Shown: piece by piece, positions 25,042 through 33,493 of the stretch | Layout: the number at the start of each line of letters is the position of its first letter | How positions within the stretch are numbered: position 1 is the stretch's first letter | Assembly (NCBI GenBank): GCA_017516465.1 | Contig: JAFXCR010000005.1 | Coordinates: 1-44,806, forward strand | Length of the DNA stretch: 44,806 bases | Direction of reading: 5' to 3' | Source of the DNA: Ruminococcus sp. | Lineage (GTDB): Bacteria > Bacillota > Clostridia > Oscillospirales > Ruminococcaceae | Program-made: the position numbers and the translations under genes | The notes under the pieces: generated by a model | The model's input: only the letters and a program-made list of their open reading frames with translations | What the model was told of the DNA's origin: nothing | The model's database searches: none

Positions 25042-25530
25042 ATGGCAAATACAATCAGAATTTTAGGAATAGATCCCGGCTACGCTATTGTCGGCTTCGG
25101 AGTCCTTGACTACGACGGCTATCGCTTTACTCCCATTGAATACGGTGCAGTTCTTACCGAAGCACACACGCCATTTCCGGAACGGCTCAAGGCGATTCAC
25201 GAAGATATCGAATATATATTTGACAAATTCAGACCTCAGTGCATGGCGATTGAACGTCTGTATTTCACGACAAATCAGAAAACCGCTATCGATGTCGCTC
25301 AGGCAAGAGGAGTGACCGTCCTTTCAGCGGCAAGAAGAAATATCCCTGTCTCGGAATATACTCCGCTTCAGGTGAAGCAGTCTGTCGTGGGCTACGGAAA
25401 GGCTGAAAAGCATCAGGTTATGGAAATGACTCGCCAGCTTCTCGGTCTTGCACAGATTCCTCGTCCGGACGACGCCGCAGACGCTCTTGCAATTGCAATA
25501 TGTCACGGACACAGCACAAGATTCAGATGA
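25042..25530 (+). CDS. ruvC: Crossover junction endodeoxyribonuclease RuvC
   Basis: The 162-residue Holliday-junction resolvase nicks symmetric strands of four-way junctions. The acidic catalytic set is visible in ILGIDPG (N-terminal Asp), AIERLYF (Glu) and PDDAADALAIA (C-terminal Asp pair), with the phenylalanine of the wedge region in YFTTNQKTA. Length is normal. GGAAGGAG precedes the ATG. It forms a ruvCAB operon with ruvA (15-bp gap) and ruvB, which is separated by sseB. Confidence 0.95.
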   Translation: MANTIRILGIDPGYAIVGFGVLDYDGYRFTPIEYGAVLTEAHTPFPERLKAIHEDIEYIFDKFRPQCMAIERLYFTTNQKTAIDVAQARGVTVLSAARRNIPVSEYTPLQVKQSVVGYGKAEKHQVMEMTRQLLGLAQIPRPDDAADALAIAICHGHSTRFR

Positions 25531-25545
25531 AAAGGAACGATAATC

Positions 25546-26160
25546 ATGATATACAGCTTAAACGGACGTCTGGCAGTAAAGGAACTCAATTTCGCCGTTA
25601 TTGAGTGCGGCGGAGTCGGCTACGGATGCCGTACCTCATACAATACTATCGCTCAGCTCGGCGAAACAGGCAGCAGCGTCATGCTGTACACTCACCTTTA
25701 CATAAGAGAGGATATGGCAGAGCTTTTCGGATTTGCCACACAACAGGAACTCAGCTGCTTCCGTCTGCTTATATCTGTTTCGGGAGTAGGTCCGAAGGCG
25801 GCAATATCCATCCTCTCCGATGTTACTCCGGAACAGTTCGCCTTTCTTGTTGCATCCGGCGACAGCAAGGCATTTACCCGTACAAAGGGTATCGGTGCAA
25901 AGACAGCACAGAGAATCGTTCTTGAACTTAAGGATAAAATCTCGTCCGAATCAATCAGCGGTGCCTTCACAGGAGCTTCCATTCCGTCATCGCCGGCGGC
26001 AGGAGCTTCATCAGCGTCAGTATCAGAGGCACTTGAAGCACTTATGGTACTCGGATATTCTCAGGGAGAAGCTTCATCCGTACTCGGAAAGCTTGATCCG
26101 TCACTCAGCACTCAGGAGCTTATCAAAGAAACTTTACGGCTTATGACAGCCGCAAAATAA
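25546..26160 (+). CDS. ruvA: Holliday junction branch migration protein RuvA
   Basis: The 204-residue tetrameric DNA-binding subunit recognises Holliday junctions and loads RuvB. The N-terminal OB fold (residues 1-~63) is followed by two helix-hairpin-helix motifs, GVGPKAAISIL and GIGAKTAQRIVLELKDK. A Ser/Ala-rich linker (about 145-165) leads to the RuvB-contacting C-terminal domain (EALEALMVLGYSQGEASSVL). All expected parts are present. AAAGGAA precedes the ATG. Confidence 0.95.
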   Translation: MIYSLNGRLAVKELNFAVIECGGVGYGCRTSYNTIAQLGETGSSVMLYTHLYIREDMAELFGFATQQELSCFRLLISVSGVGPKAAISILSDVTPEQFAFLVASGDSKAFTRTKGIGAKTAQRIVLELKDKISSESISGAFTGASIPSSPAAGASSASVSEALEALMVLGYSQGEASSVLGKLDPSLSTQELIKETLRLMTAAK

Positions 26161-26238: not shown

Positions 26239-26970
26239 ATGAATCTCGACGAATTATTGAAAGCAGCAATCAAAGACCCGTCAAAACGCTCACTTTTTCT
26301 TCAGACTCTCATCAAGAGCGACGTCTATGTAATCTGCAAGAATCCCGTAAAACATGAGAGAAGCAGAGAAGAAGGCGGAATCCAGCTGGAGCTCGTTACC
26401 ACACAGAATCCGGATGGTGATATCTTTATCCCGTTCTTTACCAGCTACCGTGCTCTCCAGCAGTTCGCAAAGCGTTACGTTGACTGCTACAAGATTAACT
26501 GCCTGAGACTCTTCGACCTCATTCAGTCAGTATCAGCAGTTCTCAACCCTAACTCCTACGGCAAGGAATTCTCCTCACAGGAAATCAAAAGCATCCTTAT
26601 GGTTGCAAGAAATCTCAAGATCAAGGCTATTTCCTACAACGAGGCTGATATCATCTCCTACCGTCCCGTTGAACATTCTGTAAGCCACATCACAAGAGCT
26701 GCCGGTAAATTCCTCTCAAAGCAACCTAACGTTGACCGTGCCTTCATCATGGAAATGGTAAAGGGCTGCGAAAAGCCGCAGATTCTCATGGTTCTTGATA
26801 TGATGGGCTCTACCAGAAAGCTCTTTGTCCCCCTCTCAAAGTACCTCTCAAAAACTGTAAAGCACAACGAACACCTCTGCTTCATCAGCTACGAACAGGA
26901 AATGGGCAGAAAGGCTGCTGCAACGGTGGATCCCTTCTATGTGCGTAAAAAACGCTATTTTGAAAAGTAA
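26239..26970 (+). CDS. SseB-family protein
   Basis: The 243-residue soluble protein has an N-terminal SseB domain (about 1-120: LFIPF-type segment DGDIFIPFFTSYRALQQFA) and an SseB C-terminal domain (about 155-243: VDRAFIMEMVKGCEKPQILM). The family name comes from enhanced serine sensitivity in E. coli; the biochemical function is not established. It has a good AAAGGGAG site and sits between ruvA and ruvB, so it is likely co-expressed with recombination genes. Codon use is biased like glyQS, suggesting substantial expression. Confidence 0.75.
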   Translation: MNLDELLKAAIKDPSKRSLFLQTLIKSDVYVICKNPVKHERSREEGGIQLELVTTQNPDGDIFIPFFTSYRALQQFAKRYVDCYKINCLRLFDLIQSVSAVLNPNSYGKEFSSQEIKSILMVARNLKIKAISYNEADIISYRPVEHSVSHITRAAGKFLSKQPNVDRAFIMEMVKGCEKPQILMVLDMMGSTRKLFVPLSKYLSKTVKHNEHLCFISYEQEMGRKAAATVDPFYVRKKRYFEK

Positions 26971-27006: not shown

Positions 27007-28053
27007 ATGATACAGACAGAGGATATGGAGTTCGCTCCGAGAATAATCTCCCCTGAAACTACTGTTGAGGACAGCGATATCGAAGTAAATCTCAGACCTC
27101 AGACGCTTCATGAATATATCGGTCAGGATAAAGTGAAAGAAAATCTTGCAGTCTATATCGAAGCGGCAAAACGCAGGGGCGAGCCTCTCGACCACGTTCT
27201 TCTTTACGGCCCTCCTGGTCTCGGAAAAACAACTCTTTCGGCTATCATAGCCCATGAACTCGGCGTGAATCTCCGTGTGACCACTGGTCCCGCTATCGAA
27301 AAGCCGGGCGATCTCGTATCTCTGCTTACAAGTCTCAGCGATAATGATGTGCTGTTTATTGACGAAATACATCGTCTTTCCCATGCCGTTGAGGAAATCC
27401 TCTATCCGGCGATGGAGGACAGGGTTATTGATATTATTATCGGAAAAGGTCCGTCAGCAAGATCAATCCGTATGGATCTCAGACCGTTCACTCTCATCGG
27501 TGCAACCACAAGGGCAGGTCAGCTTTCGGCTCCTCTCCGTGACCGCTTCGGCGTTATCCAGCGTCTGGAGCTTTACACAAAGGAGCAGCTGACCGATATC
27601 ATCCGCAGAAGTGCAATGATTCTCGGTATCCCTTGCGAAACGGACGGTGCGGCAGAAATTGCAGGACGCTCCAGAGGAACGCCGAGAATTGCCAACAGAC
27701 TCCTCAAAAGAGTGCGTGATTTCGCCGATGTCATGGGCAACGGACAGATAACTCAGCAGATAGTTACCATAGCTCTCGGCAGACTCGATATCGATGAGCT
27801 TGGGCTCGACAGCCTTGACAGACGTATGCTTGAAATGATAATAAAGGGCTACGGCGGTGGTCCTGTCGGACTGGAAACTCTTGCCTCGGCTATAAATGAG
27901 GAATCAATAACGCTGGAGGATGTCTGCGAGCCATTCCTCATGCAGCTGGGATTTCTCGGCAGAACTCCGAGAGGACGTGTCGCCACAAAGCTTGCCTACG
28001 AGCATCTGGGATATACTGCTCCCGATGACGGAAACAGACAGCTGAGCTTCTGA
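27007..28053 (+). CDS. ruvB: Holliday junction branch migration ATPase RuvB
   Basis: The 348-residue AAA+ motor hexamer drives branch migration with RuvA. Walker A is GPPGLGKTT (~68-76) and Walker B includes LFIDEIHRL. Sensor/arginine-finger elements lie in LIGATTRAG and PLRDRFG, and the C-terminal winged helix ends [18 protein letters not shown]. Length is normal. GAAGGCGG lies before the ATG. Confidence 0.97.
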
Positions 28054-28064
28054 AAATAAACGCT

Positions 28065-28607
28065 ATGTTCAGATTCGCTGTAAAACGGAATATCCGCTGT
28101 AATTCGGCTCTGGATCAGAAATCCGGAACAATGATAAACGGTCAGGCGTGCGGCTGCGTTGCAGATTTCCGCTACGGACTCTGCCGCATGAGCTTCAACG
28201 GCTGTGAGGTAATTGCTGTTCACAACGCTCTCGTCTGGCTCGGAATTCCTCAGAAGCTTGCGGATATCGCCGCATATATGGAACGCTTCAGGATGCTTAT
28301 GGGCTTTTTTGGGTGCAGTCCCTTTAAAATCGGGAAGGCTCTCTCGCATTTCGGAGCAGATTACACAAAAACAAAAAATCCGACGCAGTCTTCTGCGTAT
28401 GTGGTTTCATTCTGGACGAAAAGACGCTTTCTTTCGTCAATCCACACCGTATTCTGCGTGAAAACAGATGCCGGAACAGAAGTTTACAACAGCTCCAACA
28501 GATGCACGGACGTCAGAATATACGAGGATATACAACAGTATATCGGCAAAAAGAAGCCGATCGCTGTATATGCTCTGAAAAACAGAAATAAAGACAACAC
28601 CGCATAA
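28065..28607 (+). CDS. Hypothetical protein, papain-fold-like (possible cysteine peptidase relative)
   Basis: The 180-residue protein has no family I can name with certainty. NGCEVIAVHNALVWLG (Cys47) resembles the catalytic-cysteine helix of C39/papain-like folds. A later SIHTVFCV (His127) followed by VYNSSN (Asn142) gives the expected Cys-His-Asn order. There is no signal peptide or membrane helix, so it would be cytoplasmic. The ATG at 28065 lacks a clear ribosome site; a start at 28131 (MINGQACG) or inside ruvB is possible. Its last codons and stop lie within palindromic element copy C. Confidence 0.5.
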   Translation: MFRFAVKRNIRCNSALDQKSGTMINGQACGCVADFRYGLCRMSFNGCEVIAVHNALVWLGIPQKLADIAAYMERFRMLMGFFGCSPFKIGKALSHFGADYTKTKNPTQSSAYVVSFWTKRRFLSSIHTVFCVKTDAGTEVYNSSNRCTDVRIYEDIQQYIGKKKPIAVYALKNRNKDNTA

Positions 28608-28628: not shown

Positions 28629-28657
28629 AGAACAAAGTAGAAAAAGGAGAAAACAAA

Positions 28658-30019
28658 ATGTCAGGACTGTTCGGAACAGACAGCGCAAGAGGTCTGATTG
28701 TGGCAGAGCTTTCCTGCGAGCTTGCTATGCAGGCAGGAAGAGCGACTACGGAACTTTTTGCCGGTGAACAGGGAGGAAAAATTATTGTTGCCAAGGATAA
28801 TGCTTTATCCTCGGCAGTGCTTGAAGCGGCAGTCTGTGCCGGAATATGCTCATCCGGAGCAGATGCGGAAACCGTCGGTGAGCTTTCAGGTGCGGCGGCT
28901 TCATTTATTGTAAAGAAACATAACGCTGCGGCTGGAATTATGATAAGCGAGGCTACGGGAATCACCGGTGCAAGCGGAATAACTGTATTCGGCAGTGACG
29001 GTTTCCGTCTCAGCGAGGAAATGCAGCTTTTTATTGAGGAACGCATATACCCCGTGTCCGAGGAACGCCGCAGATTTGAAAATATAGGCAGAATGCTCAG
29101 CTGCAATACCGCCGCTGAGGAATATTTCAGCCACCTTAAAGAAATAACAGAAACATCTCTTGAAAATATAAAAGTCGCCATAGTATGCAAAAACAGCTTC
29201 ATTGAAAAAAATATCAAGGAGCTTCTTTCCGAAATGGGGGCAGACGTTACTATTATTCAGGATAACACAAGCCTCTCGGAAATAGAGGATACTCCCGATA
29301 TCGCTCCGGTAATTACAGGCTTTGAATGTCTTATGGATATGGTTGAAGCCGGAGATTTCCACTGCGGTCTTGCATTTGCTGGAGACGGCAGCAGCTTTCA
29401 GGCTGTTGATGAAAATGGTATGCCGGTTGACGGAGATACGCTTCTCGCTATAATCGCCGGATATCTGAGACAAAAGGAACTTCTTAAGGACAATACCATC
29501 GTCGTGAATGTCATGAGCAGTCTCGGTCTGCTGAACTTCGCTGAAAAAAACGATATCAACGTCGTTACATCGGGTTCATGCGGAAGAAGCGTACTTGACC
29601 GTATGCGTGAAGGAGAATACAATCTCGGCGGAGGTCAGAGTGGTCACATCTTCCTGACCGATTACTCCCCCTGCGATGACGGTCTGCTGTGTGCATTGAA
29701 GCTTCTTGAAATACTTGCATCAACCAGAAAGAAGCTCAGCGAGCTTGCCGGTGAAATGAAAAAGCTTCCGCAGATATCCCTTAATGTACGTATAAGCGAC
29801 AAGGGCAGAGAGGTTTGGAAGAATGATGAAAAAATCACCGGACTCATCGAGCATTACGAGGAAGAACTCGGCAGTGAGGGACGGATTATCGTCCGTGAAA
29901 GCAGCGGAAACGCTCCATTTATCCGTGTTATGATTGAAGGATGCGATTTCGGCAGAATAAATGATATTGCTGTGGATATTGCACAGTGCATCAAGGACAG
30001 ATGCAGATTCTATAACTGA
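28658..30019 (+). CDS. GlmM-like phosphohexomutase paralogue lacking catalytic residues (pseudoenzyme candidate)
   Basis: The 453-residue protein is collinear with phosphoglucosamine mutase, which interconverts glucosamine-6- and -1-phosphate. The opening LFGTDSARG and late QSGHIFLTDY and RVMIEG are kept. The phosphoserine loop, normally ISASHNP, reads ISEATGI (96-102), so the phosphorylated Ser is Ala99. The metal loop, normally DGDADR, reads AGDGSS (241-246). The sugar-binding Glu of GGEQSGH is Gly326, and the phosphate-loop GTEP is GNAP. All four active-site loops are altered in an intact ORF with AAGGAG at the start, so it is unlikely to be a mutase. A binding or regulatory role is inference; a true glmM should exist elsewhere. 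Confidence 0.85.
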   Translation: MSGLFGTDSARGLIVAELSCELAMQAGRATTELFAGEQGGKIIVAKDNALSSAVLEAAVCAGICSSGADAETVGELSGAAASFIVKKHNAAAGIMISEATGITGASGITVFGSDGFRLSEEMQLFIEERIYPVSEERRRFENIGRMLSCNTAAEEYFSHLKEITETSLENIKVAIVCKNSFIEKNIKELLSEMGADVTIIQDNTSLSEIEDTPDIAPVITGFECLMDMVEAGDFHCGLAFAGDGSSFQAVDENGMPVDGDTLLAIIAGYLRQKELLKDNTIVVNVMSSLGLLNFAEKNDINVVTSGSCGRSVLDRMREGEYNLGGGQSGHIFLTDYSPCDDGLLCALKLLEILASTRKKLSELAGEMKKLPQISLNVRISDKGREVWKNDEKITGLIEHYEEELGSEGRIIVRESSGNAPFIRVMIEGCDFGRINDIAVDIAQCIKDRCRFYN

Positions 30020-30061: not shown

Positions 30062-30928
30062 TTGAGAACCGCACAAAACTGGAAGGATTACACTATACTT
30101 GATACTACCGACGGAGAAAAGCTCGAAACATGGGGAGATATCAGCCTTGTTCGTCCCGATCCGCAGATAATATGGAAAACAGACAAAGCCAATCCGTTAT
30201 GGAACAGTGCCGATGGTCATTATTACCGTTCCACTCAGGGCGGCGGTAAGTGGGAATTTCGCAAAAGACTTCCGGAGTCATGGTGCATTTCATACGGAGA
30301 TCTGAAATTCAATATACGTCCTACTGGCTTCAAGCATACCGGACTCTTTCCGGAACAGGCTGTAAACTGGGACTTTATGGCTGACAAGATAAAAAATGCC
30401 GGAAGAAAAATAAGCGTACTCAATCTCTTTGCATACACGGGCGGAGCAACTCTCGCCTGTGCCGCTGCAGGAGCAGAGGTATGTCATGTGGATGCCTCAA
30501 AGGGTATGGTACAGTGGGCAAGAGACAATGCCGCCGCATCAGGACTTTCCGACAGACCGATACGCTGGATTGTGGACGACTGCGAGAAGTTCATTGCCCG
30601 TGAGATAAGACGAGGCAGACGCTATGACGCTGTTATAATGGATCCTCCGAGCTACGGCAGAGGTCCCGGCGGCGAGGTCTGGAAACTCGAAAACTGTATC
30701 TATGACCTTGTGAAGCTCTGTGAGAGAGTACTTTCCGATGATCCGCTTTTCTTCCTGATAAACAGCTACACTACGGGACTTTCCCCCTCTGTTATGGGAT
30801 ATATCCTCGGCAGTGTGCTGACAGAAAAATTCGGCGGCAAGGTAAGTTTTGACGAGATCGGACTTCCAGTAAAATCAACAGGAATGACTTTACCATGCGG
30901 CTCAACTGCTATATGGCAGAATGAATGA
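30062..30928 (+). CDS. Class I SAM-dependent methyltransferase, RlmI/RlmK-like
   Basis: The 288-residue protein has a central Rossmann methyltransferase domain. Motif I is VLNLFAYTGGATLACAAAGA, the acidic loop CHVDASKGMVQWARDN, and the catalytic/target-base motif MDPPSYGRGPGGE. This pattern is shared with RlmI/RlmK-type 23S rRNA cytosine or guanine methyltransferases. Unlike full RlmI, no N-terminal PUA domain is evident, so the RNA target is uncertain. The start is TTG with GGGAG 7 bp upstream. It lies between the GlmM-like gene and ecfA1 with short gaps, consistent with co-transcription. Confidence 0.8.
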   Translation: MRTAQNWKDYTILDTTDGEKLETWGDISLVRPDPQIIWKTDKANPLWNSADGHYYRSTQGGGKWEFRKRLPESWCISYGDLKFNIRPTGFKHTGLFPEQAVNWDFMADKIKNAGRKISVLNLFAYTGGATLACAAAGAEVCHVDASKGMVQWARDNAAASGLSDRPIRWIVDDCEKFIAREIRRGRRYDAVIMDPPSYGRGPGGEVWKLENCIYDLVKLCERVLSDDPLFFLINSYTTGLSPSVMGYILGSVLTEKFGGKVSFDEIGLPVKSTGMTLPCGSTAIWQNE

Positions 30929-30946: not shown

Positions 30947-31801
30947 ATGAATAATATCATTGAAATAAAGAATCTGCACTTCAGCTATGAACCTACAAGC
31001 GAGAATGAAAATCCGCCGGAAGTGCTGAAGGGTATTGATCTCTCTATAAAAGAAGGGGAATTCGTTGCCGTTCTCGGTCACAACGGATCAGGCAAATCCA
31101 CGCTTGCAAAGCATCTTAATGCTATCCTCCTTCCCTCTCAGGGAAGCGTCATTGTGGACGGCATCGACACGGCTGACGAGGATAAGCTCTTTGAACTGAG
31201 GCAACGTGCCGGAATGGTTTTCCAGAATCCCGATAATCAGATAGTTTCCTCAATTGTCGAGGAGGACGTCGCATTTGCACTGGAAAATCTTGGCGTACCC
31301 TACGAGGAAATGCGCCGCCGTGTTGACGAATCTCTCAAGGCAGTGAAGATGTATAAATACAGGCTTCATTCTCCGTCACAGCTTTCGGGCGGACAGAAGC
31401 AGAGAGTTGCAATTGCCGGAATAATCGCAATGCAGCCGAAGTGCATCATACTTGACGAGCCTACTGCCATGCTTGATCCAAGCGGCAGAAAGGAAGTCAT
31501 GGCGACCATAAAACGCATGAACCGTGAACAGGGTATCACTGTCGTGCTGATTACACACTATATGGATGAGGCGGCTCAGAGCGATCGTGTTGTCGTTATG
31601 GACAGCGGAAAAATCGTTATGGACGACAAGCCTGAAAAGGTTTTCTCTCAGGTCGATGTGATGAAGAATATCAGACTTGATGTTCCTCAGGTGACTGAGC
31701 TTGCTTGGGAGCTTAAAAAAGCCGGATACGATATTTCTCCGGAAATTATCTCTGAGGATGAATGTGTTGAAGCAATCATCCGCCTTATGTCGGAAAATTG
31801 A
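30947..31801 (+). CDS. ecfA1: ECF transporter ATPase EcfA1
   Basis: The 284-residue ABC ATPase energises vitamin or micronutrient uptake by group II ECF transporters. Walker A is GHNGSGKST (~44-52), Q-loop [10 protein letters not shown], signature [13 protein letters not shown], Walker [14 protein letters not shown], and switch His in [21 protein letters not shown] precedes the ATG. It forms the conserved ecfA1-ecfA2-ecfT block. No S component is encoded in the window, so the module probably serves several S proteins encoded elsewhere. Confidence 0.93.
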
Positions 31802-31827: not shown

Positions 31828-32691
31828 TTGCCGATTCTTGAAACACAGGAGCTTACCTACGTTTACAGCCCGGGGACTCCTTTTGAAAAAAAGGCTGTTG
31901 ATAATGTGAATATCTCCATTGAAAAAGGCGAGATTATTGGCGTAATGGGACATACAGGATCGGGAAAATCCACACTGATCCAGCACTTCAACGGACTCCT
32001 TAAGCCGACCTCCGGAAGAGTTCTTCTCAATGGACGCGATATCTGGGAAGATAAGACAAAAATCCGTGATGTGAGATTTCAGGTCGGACTTGTCTTTCAG
32101 TATCCTGAGTATCAGCTCTTTGAGGAAACTGTCTTTAAGGATATAGCCTTCGGTCCGAAGAATATGGGACTCAGTGACGATGAAATCAAACGCCGTGTAT
32201 ATGAAACGGCACATGATATCGGACTTTCCGAGGAGCTTATGGAACGCTCCCCGTTTGATCTTTCCGGCGGTCAGAAGCGACGCGCGGCAATCGCAGGAGT
32301 AATGGCAATGGAACCGGAAATACTTATTCTTGACGAGCCTACCGCAGGTCTTGATCCCGCAGGCAGAGACAAAATTCTCAGCCACATAAAGGCTTATCAC
32401 CAGCGGACAGGCAACACTACTCTTATCGTATCGCACAGCATGGAGGATATAGCATCATTTGCGGACAGAATTCTCGTTATGAACGATGCAGGACTGTTCT
32501 GCTTCGATGAAACAGTAAAGGTCTTTTCACGGTCAGAGGAGATCGCACAGATAGGACTTGATGTTCCTCAGATAACAAGAGTTTTCGATAAGCTGAAAAA
32601 ACGCGGATTTGACTTCGGCAAGGAAGTATATACCGTTGAATATGCCAGAAATCTGCTTTTGAAAAAACTCGCCGAAAGAGAGGCCCGCTGA
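31828..32691 (+). CDS. ecfA2: ECF transporter ATPase EcfA2
   Basis: The 287-residue partner of EcfA1 in the ATPase heterodimer has Walker A GHTGSGKST (~41-49), Q-loop GLVFQYPEYQLFEETV, signature LSGGQKRRAAIAG, Walker B ILILDEPTAGLDP, and switch His in LIVSHSMEDI. The YPEYQLF segment is characteristic of EcfA2. The start is TTG behind AGGAGGG. The stop is one base from the ecfT start. Confidence 0.93.
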   Translation: MPILETQELTYVYSPGTPFEKKAVDNVNISIEKGEIIGVMGHTGSGKSTLIQHFNGLLKPTSGRVLLNGRDIWEDKTKIRDVRFQVGLVFQYPEYQLFEETVFKDIAFGPKNMGLSDDEIKRRVYETAHDIGLSEELMERSPFDLSGGQKRRAAIAGVMAMEPEILILDEPTAGLDPAGRDKILSHIKAYHQRTGNTTLIVSHSMEDIASFADRILVMNDAGLFCFDETVKVFSRSEEIAQIGLDVPQITRVFDKLKKRGFDFGKEVYTVEYARNLLLKKLAEREAR

Positions 32692-32692
32692 A

Positions 32693-33493
32693 TTGCTGAG
32701 AGATATTACAATAGGACAGTATTTTCCGGGGAACAGCATTATTCACAGGCTTGATCCCCGCTTCAAGATAATAATGACAGTGCTTTATATAATCATGCTT
32801 TTTGCCGGCGGAACCTATATCGCACTTGCAATAGGTGCGGTATATACAATCATAGCCGTTGCACTGTCAAGGATAAAACCGAAAATGTTCGTAAAGAGCA
32901 TAAAGCCGATTATGCCTTTTCTTGTCATAACGGCTCTTATAAATCTGCTGCTGATAAGCTCCGGCGATATTGTCTGGCAGTGGAAATTCCTGAAAATAAC
33001 CGATGTCGGTATAAATACAAGCGTCTTTATGATATTGAGGATAATCCTTCTTATTACAGGAACATCCCTGCTTACCTATACTACTTCCCCTATCACGCTC
33101 ACAGACGCTATTGAACGACTTTTATCGCCGCTTAAAAAACTGAAATTTCCTGTTCATGAGCTTGCAATGATGATGTCAATAGCACTGAGATTCATTCCCA
33201 CGCTCATCGAAGAAACAGATAAGATAATGTCCGCCCAGAAGGCAAGAGGTGCGGAAATAGATACCGGAAGCTTTATGACAAGAGCAAGAAATCTTGTGTC
33301 GATTCTTGTTCCTCTGTTCATATCGTCGTTCCGGAGAGCTGATGAGCTTGCAACAGCAATGGAATGCCGCTGCTACAACGGCGGTTCAGGACGTACACGT
33401 CTCAGGCAGCTCCGATCATCTGCAAGAGACTATATCGCACTTGCTGTAACTATTGCATTTCTTGCAGCAGCTATTATTCTAAGTAAGATATAA
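32693..33493 (+). CDS. ecfT: ECF transporter transmembrane coupling protein EcfT
   Basis: The 266-residue membrane subunit links the EcfA dimer to S components. It opens GQYFPGNSIIHRLDPRFKI, has about five or six membrane helices, and two cytoplasmic coupling-helix motifs: KARGAEIDTG and AMECRCYNGGSGRTRLRQL. The second carries CRC in place of the classic ARG, a variant also seen in Firmicute EcfT. The start is TTG, almost fused to ecfA2, implying translational coupling. Confidence 0.92.
   Translation: MLRDITIGQYFPGNSIIHRLDPRFKIIMTVLYIIMLFAGGTYIALAIGAVYTIIAVALSRIKPKMFVKSIKPIMPFLVITALINLLLISSGDIVWQWKFLKITDVGINTSVFMILRIILLITGTSLLTYTTSPITLTDAIERLLSPLKKLKFPVHELAMMMSIALRFIPTLIEETDKIMSAQKARGAEIDTGSFMTRARNLVSILVPLFISSFRRADELATAMECRCYNGGSGRTRLRQLRSSARDYIALAVTIAFLAAAIILSKI

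Follow-up and report, generated by a model that had tools for sequence, protein, structure and literature searches.

GlmM, the phosphoglucosamine mutase of the alpha-D-phosphohexomutase superfamily (TIGR01455; PDB 7ojr, 3pdk, 6gyz), has been linked to functions beyond its chemistry. In B. subtilis and S. aureus it inhibits the c-di-AMP cyclase CdaA/DacA via direct contact, which is a precedent for a protein-protein function of GlmM (PMC8573169, PMC6368335), and domain 1 forms the homodimer face of the B. subtilis protein (PMC8573169). A second essential function of GlmM besides GlcN-1-P synthesis is debated in B. subtilis, and genetic results favour it (PMC6797236). Inactive phosphohexomutases are known, e.g. 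vertebrate PGM5 (aciculin), which is retained and apparently non-catalytic; in the herring protein the active site is conserved and substrate is still bound (PMC7761743). In another family and another process, the citrate synthase CitA of Caulobacter has a second role that is independent of its enzymatic activity (PMC7083601). Inactive phosphohexomutases as such are thus known, and a GlmM pseudoenzyme would be new, as no report of one was found among the matches listed for open-licence PMC papers.

Here we describe, on the basis of sequence data, a gene of a Ruminococcus species within a window of 44,806 nt, i.e. the whole stretch of DNA that was analysed. The encoded protein resembles GlmM over its whole length and its gene occupies the same ancestral address, but it lacks the catalytic Ser, most of the metal loop, and the sugar-binding Glu. 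In contrast to PGM5, the native gene has been displaced by another GlmM, and the losses recur and reach the Ser and the metal ligands. In contrast to the CdaA-inhibiting GlmM proteins, the contact residues are not conserved in the native copies. The window gene is very probably a retained, displaced pseudoenzyme. Native GlmM copies are often altered beside a second GlmM and yet preserved, which suggests a second, non-catalytic job of GlmM.

The window gene occupies the ancestral glmM address

The features of the locus are listed below.

25042-25530, +, ruvC (ORF; upstream half of the glmM address)
25546-26160, +, ruvA (ORF; upstream half of the glmM address)
26239-26970, +, SseB-like gene between ruvA and ruvB (profile match)
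27007-28053, +, ruvB (ORF; upstream half of the glmM address)
28065..28607, +, ORF of 180 aa between ruvB and the window gene (no Pfam match)
28645..28649, +, AGGAG, likely ribosome-binding site, 8 nt ahead of the ATG (read from the sequence)
28658..30019, +, native-locus GlmM, 453 aa, very probably turned pseudoenzyme (ORF, Pfam and NCBIfam profiles, orthologues)
28940..28978, +, former phosphoserine loop, residues 95-107, MISEATGITGASG, Ala99 replaces the phosphoserine (alignment, sequence)
29369..29401, +, former metal loop, residues 238-248, AGDGSS in place of DGDADR (alignment, sequence)
29621..29653, +, former sugar-binding loop, residues 322-332, GGGQSGH, Gly326 replaces Glu (alignment, sequence)
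29810..29839, +, EVWKNDEKIT, residues 385-394, start of domain 4, candidate retained surface (conservation of Trp387)
29888..29923, +, phosphate-binding loop of domain 4, residues 411-422, RESSGNAP versus RESGTEP, one additional residue (alignment, sequence)
30062-30928, +, SAM-dependent methyltransferase (profile match; downstream half of the glmM address)
30947-31801, 31828-32691 and 32693-33493, +, three ABC/ECF-like transporter genes (downstream half of the address)

The ruv gene names are our assignments by eye from the translations, and the ECF names of the three transporter genes were likewise presumed by eye. The gene order ruvC-ruvA-ruvB-glmM-methyltransferase-ABC genes recurs in other genera and in outgroup families. 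As outgroups, four stretches were read from further families of the order. An ordinary GlmM follows straight after ruvA-ruvB in three of them (L142, L144 and L145), two of which also have the same methyltransferase and ABC genes after GlmM; the fourth (L143) has another phosphohexomutase, at a different place. Within the genus, both ruvB and the methyltransferase are present in the flanks read for 105 of 109 copies. In other genera, the address is shared by eight of ten intact copies that are the only GlmM found (L186 and L188 have neither gene in the flanks read) and by six of seven altered copies (the G218 copy has the methyltransferase only).

The window gene is therefore the native, syntenic, vertically inherited glmM, because it holds the address seen in the outgroups, and the canonical GlmM found elsewhere in the genome (C7-type, see below) is the second copy. 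The preliminary description had called the window gene a GlmM paralogue. In the ordinary sense of the word this has to be reversed, the canonical copy being probably the newcomer.

The window protein has lost most catalytic residues

The reading frame of 453 codons runs uninterrupted from ATG to TGA at 28658-30019 on the plus strand, as read from the sequence and the ORF list, and together with the AGGAG motif it bears out the earlier description of an open frame with a good ribosome site. The residue replacements noted there (Ala99, AGDGSS, Gly326, GNAP) can all be read directly, i.e. M95-I-S-E-A99-T-G, A241-G-D-G-S-S246, G324-G-G326-Q-S-G-H, and R413-E-S-S-G-N-A-P420. Alignment with the intact orthologue L059 shows the replacement of Ser101 by Ala, of the next His by Thr, and of Glu326 by Gly, and in the metal loop Asp/Asp/Asp/Arg is replaced by Ala/Asp/Ser/Ser. 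What remains is the central metal-loop Asp, both Ser and His in QSGH, and the Arg that opens the domain-4 loop. When this last loop, RESSGNAP, is compared with RxSGTEP, the Arg, Ser and Gly are retained, the Thr is lost, and one residue is inserted. The statement that every catalytic loop is rewritten thus applies to the loops as such and not to every single residue, because the middle Asp and the domain-4 Arg were kept. The protein has neither the catalytic phosphoserine of the superfamily nor the metal loop DxDxDR, the GlmM sugar-binding motif GEQSGH (here GGQSGH) or the GlmM phosphate loop RxSGTEP. These losses indicate that mutase activity has very likely been lost, in line with the preliminary description, which had considered it very unlikely.

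Pfam profiles for domains I, III and IV matched the window protein over the cut-off and that for domain II below it (24.4 versus 29.3 bits), and phmmer matched residues 3-448 to the GlmM structure 6gyz. The four-domain architecture of the superfamily is therefore present, and the fold has presumably been kept. The score against the GlmM equivalog TIGR01455 (NCBIfam) is 315.6 bits and lies below the cut-off of 447.55 bits, which is passed by both the C7-type GlmM (525.1 bits) and the intact orthologue L059 (559.8 bits). Three records of metagenome-assembled genomes (MAGs), two named Ruminococcus sp. and one Oscillospiraceae bacterium, encode relatives with 76-84% identity (75-83% by another comparison) and nearly the same rewritten loops, so that chance or a local sequencing error can be ruled out. 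The first residue of the metal loop is Glu in these three relatives versus Ala in the window protein.

A second, canonical GlmM is encoded in the same genome

The assembly of the window has a size of 1.99 Mb and is 95% complete. It contains two further matches to the family. One of them, on C40, we take by eye to be a phosphoglucomutase. The other, at C7, is the canonical glmM that the preliminary description had proposed to look for: the protein has 461 aa, contains SASHNP, DGDADR, GEQSGH and RESGTEP, and is 28% identical to the window protein. Its gene is flanked by what we presume, by eye, to be an MBL-fold gene and a glycoside-hydrolase-like gene.

Among 125 genomes of the genus, 109 have a C7-type GlmM and 120 have a copy at the ancestral address; in three C7-type genomes (G015, G070 and G081) no address copy was detected. 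In the family, the C7-type is patchy. At E<=1e-115, 16 of 124 genomes gave a match, three of these matches being native copies and two belonging to this genus; at E<=3e-179 it was found in 11 other genera among the 124 genomes searched. Elsewhere in the phylum, six other genomes of 299 have a match at 63-70% identity, and the next match is at 52%. The C7-type GlmM was probably acquired by horizontal spread. The patchiness of the C7-type in both family and phylum, and the position of the window gene at the ancestral address, speak against an ordinary duplication within the genus.

Three fates of the native copy

We aligned 126 address copies, i.e. 19 from genomes with the native GlmM only, 104 from genomes that also have a C7-type GlmM, and three from incomplete genomes. 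Thirteen active-site residues were checked, six of which (the Ser, three Asp, Arg and Glu) were defined as core. The native-only set comprised nine genomes of the genus and ten hand-picked genomes that represent ten other genera; searched with an intact native protein, these genomes gave no match to a C7-type. From the genus, 109 of the 120 genomes with an address copy contributed to the alignment; two broken, one partial and four fragmented copies as well as four copies found later were left out. Many of the genomes compared are incomplete.

All 19 native-only copies keep all 13 residues. Beside a C7-type GlmM, 102 of 104 copies are without at least one of the 13 residues and 81 are without at least one of the six core residues; the core is kept in 23 copies, and all 13 residues are kept only in L022 and L068. 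The same division was found in other genera, where all seven copies beside a C7-type are altered (five genera, counted within the 104) and all ten copies of the hand-picked native-only genomes are intact. Outside the native-only set, the phosphoserine is lost in 33 and the sugar-binding Glu in 72 of 107 address copies. The third fate is deletion. Only the C7-type was found in seven genomes of six other genera and in G048 of another family. In six of these eight genomes the methyltransferase comes immediately after ruvB and tblastn detected no remnant of GlmM, which argues that loss of the native glmM is tolerated; in the other two (G241 and G048) other genes follow ruvB. In genus g78, the native-only and the C7-only fates occur in different species.

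Fourteen genus genomes have an address copy and no C7 match, i.e. the nine with intact copies and five MAGs that are 64-90% complete. Three altered copies from incomplete genomes without a C7 match (L074, L021 and L105) were kept out of the 104; they would speak against the rule if the C7-type were truly absent there. Fisher tests at the genome level gave p values of 4.6e-11 and 2.2e-20, which ignore relatedness and are not relied on.

In a GlmM tree from which the loop columns had been left out, the state of the phosphoserine changed at least nine times and that of the third metal Asp four times. In a tree of ruvB plus methyltransferase, the inner branches of which are weak, the respective numbers are 13 and six. 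Independent contrasts between C7 presence and residue loss number two to three on well-supported branches and three to seven on all branches. None of the supported contrasts has the opposite direction, and in some pairings one shows no difference. The contrasts are consistent with a C7-linked loss, and are too few for significance.

The alterations differ in kind. Of the 23 copies that keep the core, 18 jointly have the changes GEQSGH to GEPNGH/GEPDGH and RESGTEP to RESGKEP, which may reflect an altered substrate specificity instead of a loss. This concerns address copies of clade C (e.g. L010, L012 and L060) in C7-carrying genomes. The degenerate copies L114-L117 have lost the N-terminal FGTD motif and have frames open over 400 codons, and L237-L240, which match the same profile, have open frames of 416-431 codons. 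In genus g132 (G255, G334, G391, G439, G480 and G516), the best GlmM match in the family-wide search is far under the equivalog cut-off (best E value 4.7e-95).

Altered copies are under purifying selection

The dN/dS values were calculated with our own Nei-Gojobori counts. For six pairs from the window's own and the nearest clades they range from 0.047 to 0.142, in agreement with the view that the gene is not simply decaying. Close pairs gave 0.107 and 0.183 within the SGCER clade; the corresponding values were 0.043 and 0.068 for clade B and 0.076 and 0.087 for clade C. For all altered copies together (68 non-independent pairs with dS 0.05-1), the median is 0.111 and the maximum 0.249, and for 36 pairs of clade C the value is 0.122. 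For comparison, five pairs of C7-type sequences, taken from species of the window's clades, range from 0.036 to 0.054, and the whole C7-type class has a median of 0.052 and a maximum of 0.267 (L175/L203; 15 pairs). The altered copies are thus less constrained than the C7-type, with about twice the dN/dS. Intact copies without a C7-type have a median of 0.477 (eight pairs, the three highest of which all include L189); the high values probably reflect saturation between genera. The values for the pairs L031/L094 and L013/L056 are 0.100 and 0.045, the latter at a dS of 1.4.

Purifying selection after the loss of catalytic residues is what characterises a pseudoenzyme, and a simple pseudogene can be rejected on the dN/dS values of the six close pairs and of the 68 altered pairs. 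In the preliminary description, orthologues that retain SASHN and DGDADR would have been taken as an indication that the window copy is simply decayed. Such orthologues do exist, but this conclusion does not follow, because the fully intact ones lie in genomes without a second GlmM (with the exceptions of L022 and L068) and purifying selection acts on the altered copies.

Where the remaining constraint may lie

To describe the constraint on the loops, the ratio of loop entropy to the entropy of the other positions was used. The ratio is 0.09 for intact genus copies, 0.27 for clade C, 0.31 for the C7-type, and 0.38 and 0.64 for two sets of clade B. The five-member clade of the window has a value of 0.40, and 18 of 452 shifted masks gave a value as low. 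Values near 1 were found for the SGCER clade (0.82), the twelve-member clade of the window (0.87), its sister clade of seven (0.98), L042-L047 (1.06), and four degenerate copies (1.06). In several lineages, the remaining constraint is thus not in the pocket, because the loop ratios there are near those of the rest of the protein. The altered loops, the conservation of which in relatives the preliminary description had proposed to check, are conserved in the five-member clade but not in the sister clade.

In the twelve-member clade, domain 1 is the best conserved (0.77) and domain 2 the least conserved domain (0.53). Intact genus copies have the same extremes, so the ranking is no specific sign of dimerisation. 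Conservation of a segment that opens domain 4, ExWKND..IT, is higher in altered copies than in intact ones. Trp387 of this segment occurs in all 107 address copies that do not belong to the native-only set (104 with a C7-type and three from incomplete genomes), which makes the WKND segment a candidate for a retained surface. The Trp is also present in nine of nine intact genus copies, three of ten other intact copies, one of ten outgroup GlmM proteins, and none of 41 C7-type proteins. The difference in other genera (7/7 versus 3/10) has a p value of 0.0098, uncorrected for relatedness or search; the residue was picked post hoc and may be a lineage mark.

Possible roles of the retained protein

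The following course of events would best explain the results. The native, vertically inherited glmM stayed at its ancestral address, and a second, canonical GlmM, which probably spread horizontally, would have assumed the phosphoglucosamine mutase activity. The native copy would then have lost catalysis (in the window protein the Ser, two of three Asp, the Arg and the Glu are gone), and would have been retained as a protein by selection. The retained job could be a protein-protein role that the ancestral GlmM already had beside its chemistry, perhaps exerted by a dimer joined through domain 1, with the WKND segment as part of its surface. Taken as a whole, we moderately favour the proposal that the displaced native GlmM is kept as a pseudoenzyme for a non-catalytic, protein-protein role. 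On its own, the assignment of a non-catalytic partner role to the window protein has a little less than an even chance of being correct. That this second function is independent of catalysis and performed even by a sole copy, the foreign GlmM having taken over the chemistry, is a tentative proposal. The native role is not needed everywhere, because the gene is gone in several genera.

Several rival readings were considered. The rewritten pocket might bind a sugar phosphate or a related metabolite and signal its level. In favour of this, the loops in the five-member clade of the window are more conserved than the rest, both in the loop ratio and in pN (0.043 for the loops versus 0.126 for the rest). 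Vertebrate PGM5 is an example of an inactive relative with intact substrate binding (PMC7761743). However, the loops vary about like the rest in the sister clade, in L042-L047 and in degenerate copies, they are just slightly slower in the SGCER clade, and the sugar-binding Glu is lost in two thirds of the copies, so that a ligand sensor appears unlikely. A new reaction of the altered pocket would be most plausible for the DG[GSA]xER copies that retain the Ser, since two sets of clade B have conserved loops and most clade-B copies keep the Ser, the first Asp and the Arg, with Glu at the third Asp. The window copy, in contrast, has probably no known phosphohexomutase chemistry left, and a new enzyme is a very unlikely description of it. 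The native gene might also be a relic on its way out, dispensable after the arrival of the C7-type, with the altered copies as stages of a slow decay. The direct ruvB-methyltransferase junctions in C7-only genomes, two broken copies (L023 with one stop, L118 in two frames), and a series from near-canonical copies to some without the FGTD motif are what would be expected. Such a decay is nevertheless improbable in view of the low dN/dS values of the altered pairs, an open frame in 109 of the 111 genus copies of nearly full length that were inspected, and the derived Ser9, Ser106 and Arg117 that are common to at least 22 of 23 copies of clade D.

Two further proposals name a partner. The window protein could pair with the C7-type GlmM and tune its activity like a prozyme: altered copies occur beside the C7-type, domain 1, the homodimer face in B. 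subtilis (PMC8573169), is well conserved, and a catalytically dead paralogue acts as an activator in another system (PMC5201418). The two proteins are, however, just 28% identical, and the C7-type is the sole GlmM found in C7-only genomes, which makes such a subunit quite improbable. As a dedicated inhibitor of CdaA, the window protein would have the known moonlighting partner of GlmM, and its genome does contain cdaA, together with a cdaR-like gene, on another contig; no glmM was found near cdaA in the 12 kb read. The contact residues speak against this. At the positions of D151, E154 and D195 of the B. subtilis protein, acidic residues are present in 2, 13 and 41 of 107 copies and in 0, 0 and 4 of the nine intact genus copies. 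The window protein has Ser, Thr and Glu at these positions and thus does not show the CdaA-binding pattern, and the C7-type keeps the first in 41 of 41 cases and the others in none. In addition, domain 2, which makes the contact, ranks lowest in conservation within the window's clade, and all 18 genomes tested have cdaA, no matter what became of the native gene. An inhibitor of CdaA is therefore very unlikely, and the partner of the native protein is probably another one, because the contact residues are largely absent even where the native copy is the sole GlmM and cdaA is present regardless.

Under the preferred reading, a displaced native GlmM with a protein-protein role, the 81 altered copies would be natural separation-of-function mutants, which could reveal both the function and the partner. 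They stand beside a canonical GlmM able to cover the chemistry, so that the native copy lets a second function be probed without blocking cell-wall synthesis. The recurrence of the pattern, in which sole copies stay intact and displaced ones are altered or deleted, offers a good case in which to study how an essential enzyme becomes a pseudoenzyme. Many such genes may bear the name glmM without having the activity.

Additional features of the locus

The 180-aa ORF at 28065-28607, which by eye presumably encodes a C39-like cysteine peptidase, was found in 101 of 109 genus loci read, with some flanks cut. A tie between this neighbour and the alteration of GlmM was not seen, as it lies beside seven of nine intact and 94 of 100 other genus copies. 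The SseB-like gene in the ruvA-ruvB interval is also present in the genus stretches L138 and L141 and weakly matched in L214 of another genus. L207 (G152:C3:2211324-2212232) is a second, partial GlmM of the native type, with an open frame of 350 aa and without the first part. It is located a few kb from the full copy, and the methyltransferase and ABC genes are repeated, resembling a segmental duplication.
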